A DNA stretch of 64,000 bases from Kribbella italica (GTDB taxonomy: Bacteria > Actinomycetota > Actinomycetes > Propionibacteriales > Kribbellaceae). Each line of letters begins with the position of its first letter. Positions within the stretch are counted from its first letter, which is position 1. The DNA lies in NCBI RefSeq assembly GCF_014205135.1, contig NZ_JACHMY010000001.1:8494001-8558000 (forward strand), given 5' to 3'. Shown here piece after piece: positions 7,399-47,609 of the stretch. A program made the position numbers and the translations under genes. The notes under the pieces were generated by a model. It ran no database searches. It saw only the letters and a list, made by a program, of their open reading frames with translations, and was not told where the DNA came from.

Positions 7399-7567
7399 CC
7401 GGATTCGTCAACCGCCCAGCAGCCCCAGCCCCGTCAGCCGACAGACGACTTCCAGCGGGCCAGTCGCCCCACAATCCGAGCCGGTCGGCCACAGGCAACC
7501 TCAGCCGGTCAGCCCAGAGGCAACCTCAGCCGGTCAGCCCACAGGCAACCCCAGGCCCCCACCCAGC

Positions 7568-8294
7568 CGCCGACCACCGAAGCCCACAGGTGCGCACCTC
7601 ACCCACCGGCACCTCCCCGCACCCGACCGCCGAGCCCGCGGGCGAGGCCCGACCCAGGGGAGCCTGCCCGCCGAGCGCCCCGCCACTGCCAGGTCAGCCG
7701 ACCAGCACTCAGCCCGAGCCAGCTAGCCGACGTGCGGCGTCGGCCTAAGCCGGTGAGCCGACGAGTGCCTCCAGTCAAGCCGGTCAGCCCACGGACAACC
7801 CCAACCGGTCAGCCGACTGGCAACCTCAGCCCAGCCGCGACCACCGAGGCCACAGGTGAGCAACTCACCCGCTGGCACCTCCCCGCACCCGACCGCCGAG
7901 CCCGCAGCCGGCGCCGCGACGCCCGACCAAGGCGAGCCTGCCCGCCGAGCGCCCGCCACTGCCCGAACAGCCTCCAGCTGAACCAGCAAGTCAACGAGCG
8001 GCCCAGCCCGAGCCGGCAAGCCGACGAGCGGCGTCGGCCCCAGCCGCCGACCACCGAAGCCAAGGTGAGTAAGCCGGTGAGTGGACGAGTGGCTCCGGTC
8101 CGAGCCGGTTAGCCGACAGGCAATCCCACCCGGTCGGCCCACAGGCGACCCAGCCCCCGCCGACCACCGAAGCCGCAGGTAGCACCTCATCCACTAGCAC
8201 CTCCCCATACCCGACCGCCGAGCCCGCAGCTGGCGGCGCGAGGTCCGACCCAGGCGAGCCTGCCCACCGAGCGCCGCCACTGCGCGGTCAGCCG
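7568..8294. repeat. Three diverged copies of a ~135-bp block in non-coding DNA
   Basis: Block copies lie at about 7568-7702, 7838-7973 and 8161-8294 (135, 136 and 134 bp). Each opens with CGACCACCGA, continues through CACCTCCCC, ACCCGACCGCCGAGCCCGC and GAGCCTGCCC, and ends near GCCACTGC. A fragment of the opening recurs at 8048-8070. Between blocks are degenerate copies of the 31-bp motif (GCCGGTCAGCC-like). The whole 7399-8710 stretch has no ORF with family-like sequence; frames across it are Pro/Arg/Ser-rich low complexity. No function is evident. Confidence 0.75.
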
Positions 8295-8709
8295 AAAAGC
8301 ACCCCGACCTAAGCCGGCGAACCGGCGAGCGGTCCCGGATCGAGTCGGCCAGCCGACGAGCAGCATCGGCTTAAGCCGACGAGTGGTTCCGGCCCGGGCC
8401 GGTCAGCCGACTAGCGGCGTCGGCCCCAGCCGATCAGGCGGCCCACCTGATGCGATCCCGACGCCCGCGCTCTTAGCGTCACCGGGGTATAGCGATCGGA
8501 GCGAGGTACCAGCCCAAACCGGCCAGCCGATCAGCGGCTCGTGCCCAAGCCGCCAGCCGACGAGTGGACCTAGCCCAAGCCGGCCAGCCGATCAGCGGCT
8601 CCTGCCCGAGCCGGTTAGTCGACGAGTGGCGTCGGCCCGAGGCGGTTAGCCGACCAGCGGTGTCAGCCCAAGCCGCTCAGCCGCTGGCGGCGGCGTGGGG
8701 CTCAAGTCG

Positions 8710-8715
8710 GTTAGC
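8710..8715. repeat. Target site duplication, left copy (GTTAGC)
   Basis: GTTAGC directly precedes the IS481 left end, and the same six bases follow the right end at 9833-9838. Removing the element and one copy restores a normal 31-bp minisatellite unit, which confirms the junctions. Confidence 0.85.
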
Positions 8716-9709
8716 TGTACTGCCCAGGCAGGTTGGTTAACCGGCTGATGGGTGGTTGGTTTCCGATGGCGGTGTGGAGTCGGTGGTGATTGTAGTAGTG
8801 GAGCCAGGGTGCGAGGGCTGAGTTGCGTTCTTGGTTGCTGGTGTAGAAGCGGTTGTAGGCCCAGCCGTCGGCGAGGGTGCGGTGGAAGCGTTCGATCTTG
8901 CCGTTGGTCTGGGGTCGGTAGGGCCGGGTTTTCTTGGGTGTGATGCCGAGTTCGGTGCAGGCGTCGTTCCAGGCGCGGGATCGGTAGGCCGAGCCGTTGT
9001 CGGACAGGACTCGTTCGGTAGTGATGCCGCGGGCGGCGAACCAGGCGACGGCTCGGTGCAGTACGCCGATCGCGGTGGCGGCTTTTTCGTCGGTGTGGAT
9101 TTCGGCGTAGGCGACGCGGGAGTGGTCGTCGATGACGGTGTGGATGTGAGCTACTCCGACCAGCGCACGGTGGTTGTGTCCGCGTTGTCCGGTGCGGTGA
9201 GCTGTTGTGAGGCCGTTCTTCTTGCCTTGGGCTCGGCCGAGGTAGCGGTGGCCGCCGCCGTCGGGGATCTGACCGAACTTGGTGACATCGACGTGCAGCA
9301 TCGCGCCCGGGTGCGGGTGTTCGTAGCGGCGGATCGGCTCGCCGGTGACGCGGTCGATGTGGCGTAACCGGTTGATCCGGCAGCGCACCAGTACGGCGTG
9401 AACGGTCGAGGATGCCATGGCCAGTCGGCCGGCGATCTGGACAGGGCCGAGCCGCATACGCCACCGCAACCGCACGATCTGTCGCACAGACGCCGGTGGT
9501 GTCTTGGCCGGACTGTGATGCGGTCGCGATGACCGGTCGGACATCGCGGTCGGACCCGCGGCGGCATAGCGGCTGGACCAGCGGTTCGCGGTCGGCCACG
9601 ACACCTGGAACATCTTGGCGGCCATCGAAACCGACCAGCCCTCATCCACAACCAGACGCGCCAGCCGCAGGCGCGCGCGAGGGGTCAATGCAGCGTTAGC
9701 GTGGGACAC
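8711..9709 (-). CDS. IS481-family DDE transposase
   Basis: The 332-residue transposase has an N-terminal helix-turn-helix (residues 10-55, ending TANRWSSRYAAAG), then an rve integrase core: first Asp in HVDVTKFGQ, second Asp in HTVIDDHSRVAYAEI or the following LSDNGSAY, and the catalytic Glu in NGKIERFHRT. All acidic positions are present, so the protein looks active. The GTG start at 9709 has AGGAGG eight bases upstream, but this site is base-paired in a long hairpin. The reading frame runs through the left inverted repeat, and its TAA stop (8711-8713) lies in the host target duplication, outside the element proper. Confidence 0.92.
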   Translation of the reverse strand: MSHANAALTPRARLRLARLVVDEGWSVSMAAKMFQVSWPTANRWSSRYAAAGPTAMSDRSSRPHHSPAKTPPASVRQIVRLRWRMRLGPVQIAGRLAMASSTVHAVLVRCRINRLRHIDRVTGEPIRRYEHPHPGAMLHVDVTKFGQIPDGGGHRYLGRAQGKKNGLTTAHRTGQRGHNHRALVGVAHIHTVIDDHSRVAYAEIHTDEKAATAIGVLHRAVAWFAARGITTERVLSDNGSAYRSRAWNDACTELGITPKKTRPYRPQTNGKIERFHRTLADGWAYNRFYTSNQERNSALAPWLHYYNHHRLHTAIGNQPPISRLTNLPGQYS

Positions 9710-9832
9710 GAAGGCCTCCTGGCCGTGAAGCGGTTACTCGACATCTCCACTTCACGCCGGGAGGCCTTCACCCATCAATCACATTCACAACGTGTCATCA
9801 CAAAACTTCAACCAACCTGCCTGGGCAGTACA
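8716..9832. mobile_element. IS481-family insertion sequence, complete, 1117 bp
   Basis: The element begins TGTACTGCCC and ends GGGCAGTACA with 23-bp perfect terminal inverted repeats (8716-8738 and 9810-9832). It carries one intact DDE transposase on the minus strand and is flanked by 6-bp duplications of GTTAGC. IS481 of Bordetella is known to make 6-bp duplications at NCTAGN; NTTAGN here is a close variant. Intact repeats, intact transposase and a perfect duplication point to a recent insertion. It interrupts only the minisatellite. Confidence 0.9.
9710..9769 (-). promoter_or_regulatory. Hairpin that can sequester the transposase ribosome-binding site
   Basis: On the minus strand, an arm at 9769-9750 pairs with an arm at 9730-9710: 10 bp (GAAGGCCTCC with GGAGGCCTTC) plus 7 bp (CGTGAAG with CTTCACG), separated by a small internal loop, with a 19-base apical loop. 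The AGGAGG of the transposase (9715-9720) lies in the paired part directly before the GTG. In an RNA containing both arms the ribosome site would be closed. Confidence 0.7.
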
Positions 9833-9838
9833 GTTAGC
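9833..9838. repeat. Target site duplication, right copy (GTTAGC)
   Basis: The six bases match 8710-8715 and continue into CGACGTGCGG, the rest of the interrupted 31-bp unit. Confidence 0.85.
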
Positions 9839-10021
9839 CGACGTGCGGCGTCGGCATAGGCCGACGGGCCGACTAGCTGCGTCGGCCTATGCGGCGGGCC
9901 GGTTGGCGTCTCTAGCTCAAGCCCGCCAGCCGGCCGCGGTCCCTGCTCGAGCTGGCCAGTGGTGTTGGCTTCGGGTGCCTTGGCCCATCACGGGCCAGCT
10001 GGTGTTGGCTGGCTCGGTCGG

Positions 10022-16907: not shown

Positions 16908-17378
16908 ATGAAGACACTGGGCATTCTGCTCAGCACCGCGGGCCTGGCCGGAGCGGGCGCAATCGCTCTGGCCTCACCAGCACAGGCCGTCGAAGAGGCC
17001 AACTGCCCGGGTGCCAGACCGATCTCGTCAGCGCAGATCTTTCGCGACAACAAGCCGCCCGGCTGGGGCGACATCAAGCTGGTGCGGGACAACTGCTCGC
17101 AGTACTGGGCCGAGGTCGTGATGGACGCGAAGCTGCCGAGGTACGCGATGAGTACCGCGATCCTGGTGCAGACCGGCGGGTCCAACAACGGCCGGACACT
17201 GACCTGCGACAGCAGCGGTGGCACCGGCGCGGTGGTGGCCGGGCAGCGCACCTGCCGGACTCCGAAGGTGAAGTCGCTGGACACGAGTACGACGTTCACG
17301 GCGATCGCCCGGGAGTACCACAACTTCGGCAGCGGCTGGAGCAAGATCTCGGAGAACCGGACCGCCCGGACCCGCTAA
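16908..17378 (+). CDS. Small secreted protein with paired cysteines
   Basis: This 156-residue protein starts with a Sec signal peptide cleaved near ASPAQA-VEE (about residue 27), followed by a compact domain with six cysteines (ANCPG, DNCSQ, LTCDS, RTCRT among them) likely disulfide-bonded outside the cell. I do not recognise the family. GGAAGGG precedes the ATG by six bases. The upstream spacer (16764-16907) contains a TTGACT that could be a -35 box, but no matching -10 at normal spacing. Its TAA is immediately followed by the first base of the palindromic repeat at 17379. Confidence 0.7.
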   Translation: MKTLGILLSTAGLAGAGAIALASPAQAVEEANCPGARPISSAQIFRDNKPPGWGDIKLVRDNCSQYWAEVVMDAKLPRYAMSTAILVQTGGSNNGRTLTCDSSGGTGAVVAGQRTCRTPKVKSLDTSTTFTAIAREYHNFGSGWSKISENRTARTR

Positions 17379-17540
17379 GGGCGTGTCTCCCGCTTCCCGC
17401 CTACTGCGCGGCACTCGGCACGGCACCTCAGCGCACTGGAGCAAAGACCACGATGGAAAAACATCGAGGCCTTCACTCCAGCACGCTGAGCTACCGCACC
17501 GAGCACCTGCTCGCTACGGCGGGAAGCGGGAGACACGCCC
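17379..17540. repeat. Covarying hairpin repeat, copy 1 (162 bp)
   Basis: A perfect 23-bp inverted repeat (17379-17401 and 17518-17540) encloses a 116-bp core (17402-17517) that is itself foldable: GGCACTCGG-type stem, CTCAGCG/CGCTGAG, CTGGAG/CTCCAG and an apical CGATG-GAAAAA-CATCG hairpin. A second copy is at 46608-46771. The cores differ at seven bases, all in paired positions and all preserving pairing on the minus-strand RNA. The terminal arms differ between copies, yet each copy is perfectly self-complementary. It begins at the base after the stop codon of the secreted-protein gene. Short frames across it look like shadows, not genes. Confidence 0.85.
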
Positions 17541-17590
17541 TGGCCGACACCACCGCACGGCGACAAGCTGCCATGGCACCGGACGGCCAC

Positions 17591-17603: not shown

Positions 17604-18980
17604 ATGAGTGAGGTCGTCGAGCGGTTGCGTCAGGTCCTGCCTCCGGAGGCGTTGGTCACCGATCCGGACCGGATGGAGAGCTTCCGGTACGACCGGGCGA
17701 TGTTCTGCCCGGCCGGGGTGCCGGCGGCCGTCGTCCTGGCCCGGGAGACGGCGCACGTGCAGGCCGCGGTGCGAGCCGCGGCCGAGTTCGGCGTGCCCGT
17801 GGTTCCGCAGGGCGCGCGGTCCGGCCTGTCCGGTGCCGCGAACGCGCTGGACGGCTGCGTCGTGATCTCGCTGGAGAAGATGGACAAGATCCTCGAGATC
17901 CAGCCGGTCGACCGGTACGTCGTGACGCAGCCCGGGGTCTTCAACGCCGTGTTGTCGCGTGCGGTCGCCGAGCAGGGACTGTTCTACCCGCCGGACCCGT
18001 CCAGCTGGGAGTTCTGCTCGATCGGCGGCAACCTGTCGACCAACTCGGGCGGCCTGTGCTGCGTGAAGTACGGCGTGACCACGGACTACGTGCTCGCGCT
18101 CGAGGTCGTGCTCGCGAACGGCGAGATCCTGCGTACCGGCCGCCGGACCGTGAAGGGCGTGGCCGGGTACGACCTGACCAAGCTGATCGTCGGCAGCGAG
18201 GGCACGCTCGGGATCATCACCGAGGCCACGCTGGCGCTACGGCCGGCGACGGCCAAGCCGCGGACGATGGCCGCGCTGTTCGGCTCCGGGGTCGCGGCCG
18301 GCGAGGCGATCGTCGAGATCATCCGGTCCGGTGTCTCGCTGAGTCTGCTGGAGATCATGGACCGGACCACGATCCGCGCGGTCAACGCCTACAAGCGGAT
18401 GGACCTGCCGGAGGACGCGGCGGCGATGCTGATCGCGCAGTCCGACGCGGGCGGTGCCGCGGGCGCGGCCGACATCGCGACGGTGGCCAAGCTGTGCCGC
18501 GAGAACGCCGCGATCGAGTGCATCGAGGCCGACGACGAGGCCGAGGGCGACCTGCTGCTGGAGGCCCGGCGGGCGGCGCTGCTCGCGCTCGACGAGCTCG
18601 GCACGACGATGATCGACGACGTCTGCGTACCGCGGTCCCGGCTGGCCGACTTCATCGGCGCGACCGAGAAGGTCGCGCGGGATCTGGACATCACCGTCGG
18701 TGTGCTCGGCCACGCCGGCGACGGCAACATGCACCCGACGGTCGTGTTCGACGCGACCGACCCCGAGCAGGCCCGGCGGGCGCAGGTGGCGTTCGACAAG
18801 ATCATGGAGATCGGTCTGGAGCTGGGCGGAACGATCACCGGGGAGCACGGCGTCGGAGTGCTGAAGCGCGACTGGCTGGCCCAGGAGATCGGCCCGGTGG
18901 CGCTGTCGGTGCACCGTTCGATCAAGGCCGCGCTCGATCCGCAGAACTTGCTGAATCCGGGCAAGGTGGTCGTGAGCTGA
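17604..18980 (+). CDS. FAD-linked oxidase, GlcD/D-lactate dehydrogenase type
   Basis: The 458-residue flavoenzyme has an N-terminal FAD-binding domain of the vanillyl-alcohol-oxidase fold (VVPQGARSGLSGAANA near residue 70, GGNLSTNSGGLCCVKYG near 143, SEGTLGIITEATLAL near 195) and a C-terminal FAD-oxidase domain ending GTITGEHGVGVLKR...LNPGKVV. The HGVG motif is typical of 2-hydroxyacid oxidation. GlcD (glycolate oxidase subunit) or a D-lactate dehydrogenase are the best readings; no GlcE/GlcF partners are adjacent, which favours a stand-alone dehydrogenase. The promoter looks leaderless. Confidence 0.88.
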   Translation: MSEVVERLRQVLPPEALVTDPDRMESFRYDRAMFCPAGVPAAVVLARETAHVQAAVRAAAEFGVPVVPQGARSGLSGAANALDGCVVISLEKMDKILEIQPVDRYVVTQPGVFNAVLSRAVAEQGLFYPPDPSSWEFCSIGGNLSTNSGGLCCVKYGVTTDYVLALEVVLANGEILRTGRRTVKGVAGYDLTKLIVGSEGTLGIITEATLALRPATAKPRTMAALFGSGVAAGEAIVEIIRSGVSLSLLEIMDRTTIRAVNAYKRMDLPEDAAAMLIAQSDAGGAAGAADIATVAKLCRENAAIECIEADDEAEGDLLLEARRAALLALDELGTTMIDDVCVPRSRLADFIGATEKVARDLDITVGVLGHAGDGNMHPTVVFDATDPEQARRAQVAFDKIMEIGLELGGTITGEHGVGVLKRDWLAQEIGPVALSVHRSIKAALDPQNLLNPGKVVVS

Positions 18981-46607: not shown

Positions 46608-46771
46608 GGGCAGGTCTCCGAATCCCTCGCCTACTGCGCGGCACCCGGCACGGCACCTCGAAGCACTGGAGCAAAGACCACGATGGAAAAACATCGAGGC
46701 CTTCACTCCAGCACTCCGAGCTACCGCACCGGGCACCTGCTCGCTACGGCGAGGGATTCGGAGACCTGCCC
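46608..46771. repeat. Covarying hairpin repeat, copy 2 (164 bp)
   Basis: A perfect 24-bp inverted repeat (46608-46631 and 46748-46771) encloses a 116-bp core nearly identical to that at 17402-17517. The differing positions form compensated pairs (T-A to C-G, A-T to G-C, C-G to A-T; one G-C becomes a wobble if the minus strand is transcribed). It lies between two divergently transcribed genes, 13 bases before the ribosome site of the minus-strand membrane-protein gene. Confidence 0.85.
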
Positions 46772-46874
46772 TAGTCCTGACCGCGCAGCCCGTTGATTCG
46801 TGACACGGTCGGCGGTGTCACGAATCGCGCGGCTGTCCGGTCATCACCGCAGAGGACCGGAGGAGAGGACTGTG

Positions 46875-47609
46875 ATGACGAAGTTCCTGGTGACGGGATC
46901 GACCGGGCAGGTCGGGCGGCCGGCGACTGAGGCTCTGCGGGCGACCGGGGCCGAGGTGGTCGGTCTGACCCGGCGCGGCGGACCGGGCGCGGTGGCGGCC
47001 GACCTGGTCAGTGGGCAGGGCCTGACCGGGGCGCTGGCCGGTGTCGACACCGTCGTACACCTTGCCGCGGGCAACAACAAGCGGGACCTGCCGATGATGC
47101 GGAACCTGACCACCGCGGCCGCCGAGGCCGGGATCAAGCACCTGGTGATGGTCTCGATCGTCGGGTGCGACCGGGTGCCGCTCGGCTTCTACCGGCAGCG
47201 GGTGGAGCTCGAGGAGATCGCGCTCGCGTCCGGCGTACCGCTCACGATCCAGCGGGCGACGCAGTTCCACTCGCTGGTCGAGCAGGTGTTCACGGCGCAG
47301 AGGTTCCTGCCGGTGGTGTTCGGCCCGGACTGGCCGTACCAGCCGATCGCGATGCAGGAGGTCGGCGCGCGGATGGCGGAGCTGGCGACGGGCGCGCCGC
47401 AGGGCCGCGCCGACGACATCGGCGGGCCGGTCCGGCAGACGGTGCGTGAGCTGCACGCGATCTGGAAGCGGGTGACCGGGAGCAAACGGCGCGGCGTGAT
47501 CTTCAAGCCGCCGGGCAAGATGTCGGCGGCGTTCGCTGCCGGGTACCACCTCGCGCCCGGGTCGTCGTACGGGCAACAGATGTTCGAGCAGTACCTGCAA
47601 GCGCGATGA
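46875..47609 (+). CDS. NAD(P)-binding, NmrA/atypical SDR protein
   Basis: The 244-residue protein has an N-terminal Rossmann motif VTGSTGQVGRPATEAL and an arginine after the second strand (LTRRGG) favouring NADP(H), then DTVVHLAAGNNKRDL and HLVMVSIVGCDRVPLGFYRQRVELE, matching the NmrA-like/NAD(P)H-binding SDR group that often acts as a redox sensor or quinone reductase. AGGAGAGG precedes the ATG by six bases. It overlaps the CopC gene (ATGA), so the two are coupled. Confidence 0.88.
   Translation: MTKFLVTGSTGQVGRPATEALRATGAEVVGLTRRGGPGAVAADLVSGQGLTGALAGVDTVVHLAAGNNKRDLPMMRNLTTAAAEAGIKHLVMVSIVGCDRVPLGFYRQRVELEEIALASGVPLTIQRATQFHSLVEQVFTAQRFLPVVFGPDWPYQPIAMQEVGARMAELATGAPQGRADDIGGPVRQTVRELHAIWKRVTGSKRRGVIFKPPGKMSAAFAAGYHLAPGSSYGQQMFEQYLQAR

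Follow-up and report, generated by a model that had tools for sequence, protein, structure and literature searches.

A hairpin that occurs twice in a 64,000-nt stretch of the Kribbella italica genome (contig NZ_JACHMY010000001.1, positions 8,494,001 to 8,558,000; called the window hereafter) belongs to a repeat family. The family, its structure, its covariation, its preference for G.U over A.C pairs, its polarity relative to replication, its polymorphic insertion and its identical copies at CTAG are directly supported by the sequences compared. They are probably the marks of a non-autonomous mobile hairpin that inserts at CTAG with a polarity fixed by the replication fork, and whose arms are kept paired by template switching together with selection on the folded strand. 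Such a mobile hairpin is a better fit than a plain regulatory RNA or a terminator. The original prediction, made from the window sequence, was incomplete: mobility with a CTAG target and replication-linked orientation were missing from it.

Two hairpin copies in the window and the genes beside them

The two predicted copies are real, with ends about one base from those given earlier. They and their neighbours are listed below; for the hairpins, minus is the well-folding strand.

17378..17541, minus strand: hairpin element copy 1 (G000:8511376-8511543, minus, 182.9 bits)
approximately 17378-17400 and 17519-17541: outer arms of copy 1
46608..46771, minus strand: hairpin element copy 2 (G000:8540605-8540774, minus, 189.6 bits)
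16908..17378, plus strand: 156-aa open reading frame ending at copy 1, picked by codon use among overlapping frames
17376..17378, plus strand: TAA stop codon of a plus-strand gene, its final base being the first paired base of copy 1
17604..18980, plus strand: next gene after copy 1, 458 aa
46106..46579, minus strand: small gene, 157 aa, with its start 28 nt from copy 2
46875..47609, plus strand: divergent gene beyond copy 2, 735 nt, 100 nt away, its start chosen inside the 46800-47609 frame

The copies form a 124-nt repeat family with 94% identity, the longest direct-repeat unit listed in the window. When the sequences are compared, exactly seven differences are found in the core, all of them in the stem, just as had been counted: they include three double exchanges (T-A to C-G, A-T to G-C and C-G to A-T), and the seventh is a change from G-C to A-C on the plus strand, which is G.U on the minus strand. 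The outer arms are unlike between the two copies, each pairing with itself. In predicted RNA folds, both copies show near-unbroken pairing on the minus strand and A.C bubbles on the plus strand; with 8-10 bases of flank, the energies are -148.1 (minus) versus -117.1 (plus) kcal/mol for copy 1 and -143.5 versus -108.6 kcal/mol for copy 2. CTAG is present on the right side of copy 2 (46771-46774).

In gene calling, the upstream neighbour of copy 1 is 471 nt long and lies at -3. The gene that follows copy 1 presumably encodes a FAD-linked oxidase of the GlcD type, which its product resembles, and the product of the divergent gene beyond copy 2 looks, by eye, like a protein of NAD(P)-binding type (MTKFLVTGSTGQVG...). 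Since the small minus-strand gene starts 28 nt away, copy 2 is located just upstream of its probable ribosome-binding site. Elsewhere in the window (7478-9901) are degenerate tandem repeats with units of 25 and 31/62 nt and a 36-nt inverted repeat pair (8703-8738 / 9810-9845), neither with a visible tie to the hairpin.

Structure, covariation and strand bias

In the element, of about 164-165 nt, the outer arms (about 23-25 pairs) vary. The asymmetric internal loop, in which GCCGTAGCGAGC faces GCGCAGTAGGC, and the inner stem, which contains tandem G.U pairs, are conserved, and the apex can be replaced. The tandem G.U pairs and the internal loop are kept in relatives. GTAG motifs are found within the internal loop of many copies and are replaced in a subset (GTCG with GCAC). 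Older Kribbella copies have unlike end sequences (AGGTCCT, AGAGGGG, AAGCCGT and so on), which are nevertheless paired.

Covariation in the hairpin is beyond chance. An alignment of 51 copies contains 292 cells with two-sided changes, versus 66.5 +/- 7.9 after shuffling and 22-61 when the structure is slid by 1-3 columns; two-sided changes are seen in 33 of the 64 pairs, and none of 500 shuffles attains the observed score, where the structure came from the same 51-copy alignment and relatedness of the copies is uncorrected. The earlier suggestion of a structure under constraint is thus supported by massive covariation. The outer 23 pairs of 218 distinct copies (5014 arm cells) are 95.6% Watson-Crick, with 4795 Watson-Crick, 122 G.U, 16 A.C and 81 other cells, 47 of the last falling at one position; these copies are Kribbella loci plus L189, selected by at least 16 Watson-Crick pairs out of 23, and they are related, so that p-values are guides only. 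Taking one copy per orthologous site (192 copies) gives 4221 Watson-Crick, 107 G.U, 13 A.C and 75 other cells. Among the 51 copies, G.U and A.C cells number 496 and 2 in the inner stem, and 25 and 5 in the outer arms. The excess of G.U sits on the window minus strand, which is the best-folding strand.

Further copies that lose their pairing, which the original prediction named as evidence to the contrary, were not seen: pairing persists in almost every full-length copy that was located. In a relaxed check of 304 loci, in which several sites were fetched twice, 284 have at least 16 pairs with one bulge allowed and 20 have fewer. The low-pairing loci include one full-length element with bulged arms (L331), internal deletions or half copies (L145, L147, L187, L194), elements cut by the locus end (L171, L196, L226, L228), half or mini copies (L025, L082, L083), and scars, fragments or unclear ends (L230, L232-L235); the remaining three (L169, L218, L237) are unclassified.

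Is the hairpin then a structured RNA, whose minus-strand transcript would serve as a regulator, a processing site or a stability element, with selection on RNA alone? Both the one-strand preference for G.U over A.C (122 vs 16 in the arms, 496 vs 2 in the inner stem) and the conserved tandem G.U pairs and internal loop in relatives agree with this idea. As described below, however, the folding strand tracks replication (135 of 137 listed copies) and not transcription (77 antisense versus 26 sense in tandem contexts), insertions are polymorphic with identical copies at unrelated CTAG sites, and half of the double exchanges are transversions, so that we regard RNA selection alone as unlikely. A role as RNA is possible, but it does not explain the polarity, and for an intergenic hairpin of bacteria, strong covariation alone does not prove RNA function.

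The family in Kribbella

A covariance model built from 51 copies found many further copies, far beyond the two of the window. It detects 22 full copies, one shortened copy and one 56-nt mini copy in the own genome, and also matches four members of a sister family there; two half copies were seen by DNA search. The sister hairpins (L078-L081; G000:4025882, 1043514, 530811 and 5121390) have other arms, e.g., AGTGTCC...GGACACT, and similar tandem G.U motifs, and all four follow replication polarity. By DNA search, the family is present in 36 of 37 genomes of the genus, the exception being G029, with one marginal match among 21 other genomes. Of 147 genomes from the order, the covariance model matches 50, which comprise 38 from the same genus and 12 from other genera; that 38 of 38 Kribbella match holds among the genomes listed, as 77 genomes without a match are not itemised by genus, and in four genomes of the genus (G001, G025, G029, G036) all matches are weaker. 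The genus is taken to be Kribbella because loci in it are identical to those of named Kribbella records. When named genomes were scanned for the pattern, 88 stretches came up, of which 87 carry the label Kribbella and one the label Streptomyces sp. SID13031. The sequence of this last record (L189) is of the Kribbella type, and it is possibly a mislabelled Kribbella.

Rfam has 0 matches at gathering score in the window. The matches below it, at E up to 1, are to miRNA-precursor models only (MIR898, 33.6 of 75 bits; mir-2110, 21.2 of 90 bits), which we read as generic long hairpins. No published description of this hairpin family was found in the literature searched, that is, one library with the terms used. 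The earlier statement that no described element matches therefore needs to be divided: the hairpin resembles REPINs and ERIC/MITE-like repeats, so that "undescribed" may hold for the family, apparently, but not for the kind.

Polarity relative to replication

Among the copies listed from 11 Kribbella genomes, which are not all copies and include none from G029, 135 of 137 are oriented the same way with respect to the replication fork (p about 1e-37), with dnaA as the origin marker, the terminus taken as opposite, and the better-scoring or listed strand taken as the element strand. The two exceptions, G014:647855 and G002:2770215, are an orthologous pair (L096/L111), and thus probably reflect one event. 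The 56-nt mini copy (G000:8653146), not among the 137, is on the unexpected strand, though its sequence is almost a perfect palindrome. In the prevailing polarity, the strand that folds well serves as the leading-strand template, which has the same sequence as the nascent lagging strand. Ten G012 copies whose sites are empty in relatives are all of the expected polarity, and therefore the polarity is set at or soon after insertion. Orientation bias relative to genes (77 versus 26 in tandem contexts) is weaker than that relative to replication, and since genes are mostly on the leading strand, a bias relative to genes would follow. A proportion of 135 in 137 is far above the expectation for an ordinary repeat, and it suggests that single-stranded DNA at the fork is the source or the target of insertion, which would proceed here without a Y1 enzyme visible to Pfam.

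Insertion, target site and gene context

In G186, a related draft genome, seven byte-identical copies (L385-L391) occupy seven sites, each as CTAG...CTAG. They are likely the product of a very recent burst, and this genome is likely the best place to look for a mobilising enzyme. Empty sites are available for comparison in other genomes: for 10 of 16 G012 sites tried, one or more relatives have a spanning empty allele, the remaining 6 having no spanning allele among the fetched loci, and five further empty sites are known outside these ten. The L256 site, for instance, is empty in six other genomes; the empty alleles of G013 and G014 read GTCTAGTTCG, and the occupied site reads GTCTAGG...CCTTAGTTCG. 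A seventh genome holds a different short insert at this site: L365 (G018:C5:117748-117902) is palindromic (CCTAGCCTCGATCCACGGATCGAGGCTTAG), lies at CTAG/TTAG, and perhaps belongs to another family with the same target. At L253 (three relatives) and L112 (two relatives), the empty allele has TGA where the occupied allele has TAG at the element. Older sites show irregular joints without uniform duplication. A target duplication of TA, of CTAG or none at all was considered, and no single reading fits all empty sites; the CTAG on both sides of the seven identical G186 copies is a candidate duplication.

Genes around the copies were called with a simple, unvalidated gene caller, which found both neighbours for 198 of 218 copies, 20 being without one. 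A stop codon lies within 6 nt of an element end in 82 of the 198; TAG accounts for 37 of 42 such stops on the left-hand side and 32 of 59 on the right. Forty copies are located between convergent genes, 19 of them with stops at both ends. Such an arrangement could suggest a bidirectional terminator or stop-codon cassette kept as a separator of convergent genes, for which the frequent stops at element ends would speak. But 55 of the 198 copies have divergent and 103 have tandem neighbours (of the latter, 77 carry the hairpin strand antisense and 26 sense to the genes), polarity follows replication, and the element is absent from relatives at ten examined sites; we consider this role very improbable. 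No gene spans a whole copy in 129 loci by the same kind of simple calling, and some gene ends overlap copies.

Copies are apparently lost as well. A 17-nt scar, TAGGGYGTGTCTCCCTA, is found at three sites, L080 (G000:529534), L230 (G000:3475638) and L231 (G000:6894226), where the hairpin was apparently deleted between its CCC repeats. Internal deletions, half copies and a mini copy also occur, as expected of palindromes. One half copy (L025 1501-1550; G000:3320136-3320185) seems to provide the 3' end of an open frame, its final codons and TAG stop included; the frame looks, by eye, like that of a LacI-type regulator, and part of the repeat may have turned into coding sequence.

How the arms change

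Comparison of 33 orthologous pairs, which represent 20 separate sites, gives 106 double Watson-Crick exchanges, 53 transitions and 53 transversions, together with 29 single changes between Watson-Crick and G.U, 1 single A.C, 11 other doubles and 9 other singles. With one pair per site, there are 42 transition and 40 transversion doubles, 18 G.U, 1 A.C, 10 other doubles and 6 other singles. It is to be noted that some of these "orthologous" pairs could be independent insertions at one spot, as the immediate flanks of L054 and L219 are unlike. Copies from different sites that resemble each other most closely often show mirrored pairs as their differences, with 0-2 changes in the core; single G.U steps and mismatches are seen too. 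These patterns, read from aligned arms, suggest that templated mirroring acts in addition to selection. Mirroring alone does not account for the excess of G.U, and selection alone would hardly give equal numbers of transversions; thus two processes are needed. A change of the arms at each transposition was considered as well, but it does not fit the identical arms of the seven fresh G186 copies. Gene conversion that homogenises the core was another candidate reading.

Could mirroring still suffice, without any selection, if replication corrects any long palindrome by template switching? The mutational background can be examined in the flanks, where the folding strand has a slight excess of C over G (mean GC skew -0.018; 141 of 218 copies have a negative value). 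The leading strand has a known C to T bias. As the folding strand is C-rich in its flanks, C to T is not favoured there, and mutation bias should give A.C, not G.U. The mirrored transversions are in accord with correction alone, and a mechanism is published: template switching has been proposed as a source of compensatory pairs (PMC8794818), and a strand bias has been reported for quasipalindrome mutation in E. coli (PMC7202029). Against this idea stands the strand-specific excess of G.U, where the C-rich flanks predict A.C instead, and correction without selection seems quite unlikely. Arm-to-arm template correction, which the original prediction had offered as one explanation, stays a good part of the account. 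Studies of RNA evolution have left open whether compensatory changes come about step by step, via G.U, or simultaneously by template switching, and the arms may be viewed as a natural assay of this question.

How can a mobile hairpin keep its arms complementary? The element would insert at CTAG or a similar sequence, often at a stop codon, through a single-stranded step associated with the fork, and its polarity on insertion would put the best-folding strand on the leading-strand template. The arms would then drift yet stay complementary, because template switching inside the hairpin at forks would mirror mutations from arm to arm, and selection on a well-folded single strand, either a DNA intermediate or RNA, would remove pairs that are neither Watson-Crick nor G.U. 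Within this scheme, we infer the single-stranded intermediate, the template switching and a trans-acting enzyme. If so, the family offers a natural setting in which to study the movement and self-repair of single-stranded hairpins.

Which enzyme may move the hairpin

No mobile-looking gene recurs within 3 kb of copies when neighbour clusters are judged by eye; ordinary enzymes, transporters and orthologous neighbours seem to make up the largest ones. The strongest rival to our reading is a MITE derived from an ordinary DDE insertion sequence that has a YTAR/CTAG target and is coupled to the fork. IS5- or IS701-like elements have such a target, and TnsE of Tn7 gives fork-linked polarity. Fresh copies with CTAG at both ends agree with such a MITE, and so do the shortness, intergenic location and many copies of the element. 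The older Kribbella ends, however, are unlike in sequence yet paired, and a transposase that reads sequence needs no such pairing. In addition, an end-pattern scan of the own genome for an autonomous partner gave, besides hairpins, eight unpaired ends, which are fragments, scars or unclear within the 200 nt inspected and not recognisable as transposon ends, although this is weak evidence, with ORFs listed at one of the eight loci. On balance, we hold a DDE origin to be somewhat doubtful.

A Y1 (HUH) transposase of the IS200/IS605 type, acting on single-stranded DNA, could move the hairpin as it does a REPIN/REP or PATE. Y1_Tnp (PF01797) matches 1 of 12 genomes, partially and in G029, and all 12 match the element model. 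REPIN/RAYT and IS200/IS605-derived elements have a conserved GTAG/GGAG tetranucleotide at the hairpin foot, whereas GTAG here belongs to the internal loop, and a subset of copies has another sequence in its place. If activity resided on the lagging-strand template, as is the case for IS200/IS605, that strand should fold better, but the better fold is found on the other one, which counts against this explanation even though orientation is tied to replication in both. On the other side, the mobile unit is a hairpin with fork polarity and GTAG in many internal loops, REPINs show compensatory changes too (PMC3116915), and Y1 enzymes target the lagging strand (PMC6006769). With a single partial enzyme match among 12 genomes, a replaceable GTAG and the best fold on the wrong strand, a Y1 transposase appears improbable.

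Several known systems share traits with the family. Integron attC sites keep structure over sequence, have one active strand and are often just behind a stop codon; in these traits they are alike, but no cassette array was seen at copies, and length and target differ. ERIC is palindromic and is said to insert at TA, in contrast to CTAG here, and we know of no report of replication polarity or arm drift in it. ERIC and RU-type elements likewise have 103-168 bp and multiple intergenic copies and are MITE-like (PMC2759123). The REPIN, mobilised by RAYT transposase, is also a short, non-autonomous, palindromic extragenic unit in many copies, with a predicted hairpin in single-stranded DNA or mRNA and compensatory changes (PMC3116915). 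It has highly conserved ends and a variable spacer, unlike the variable outer arms and conserved internal loop found here, where Y1/RAYT matches are confined to 1 of 12 genomes and fork polarity is near-absolute. PATE and SMR of Haloquadratum are transposase-free mobile palindromic or inverted-repeat elements as well, and mobilisation of SMR is called enigmatic (PMC3119063); PATEs are related to IS605-type ends, SMRs target other mobile elements, and host and target differ.

Relatives beyond Kribbella

Weaker matches extend across the class, in 32 of 345 genomes and 11 of 127 genera with the own genome and Kribbella counted in, at most 8 candidates being scored per genome and the listed or better-scoring strand being taken as that of the element. 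Relatives in other genera, among those inspected, mostly have ends of the CTAGGG...CCCTAG type, the loop GCCGT(A/C)GCGAGC / GCGCAG(T/C)AGG(C) and another apex; in some (L379, L383) the loop is missing or the ends differ, and G045 copies end in AGGAGGG. In G045, of another family, 9 of 9 copies have the same polarity. Four further genomes show 17 of 23 with the expected polarity (p 0.03), and polarity is weak in some other genera (5 of 8 in G272; 4 of 6 in G386, treated as linear). G290, which has a dnaA match and four contigs, is outside the 23; counted by hand, its dnaA contig has 3 of 4 on the expected strand. It is conceivable, and we propose it tentatively, that single-stranded hairpins throughout Actinomycetia are moved by a non-Y1 enzyme, and that their arms are continually rewritten from one another by template switching within the hairpin, each insertion thus holding a self-correcting record; entry into the nascent lagging strand at forks would then fix their polarity.

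Viral contigs gave 0 matches to the element pattern, and no plasmid or phage carrying the window copy was found. The G186 copy, used as a query against plasmids, has 2 partial matches. With a Streptomyces-like copy as the query against 72,556 plasmid records, 71 match, 66 of them from Streptomyces, and 18 cover at least 80% of the query; no transposase is annotated in three of the neighbourhoods matched by this copy. These 71 plasmids hold 133 places with relatives, ten of which are on Embleya NZ_CP108777.
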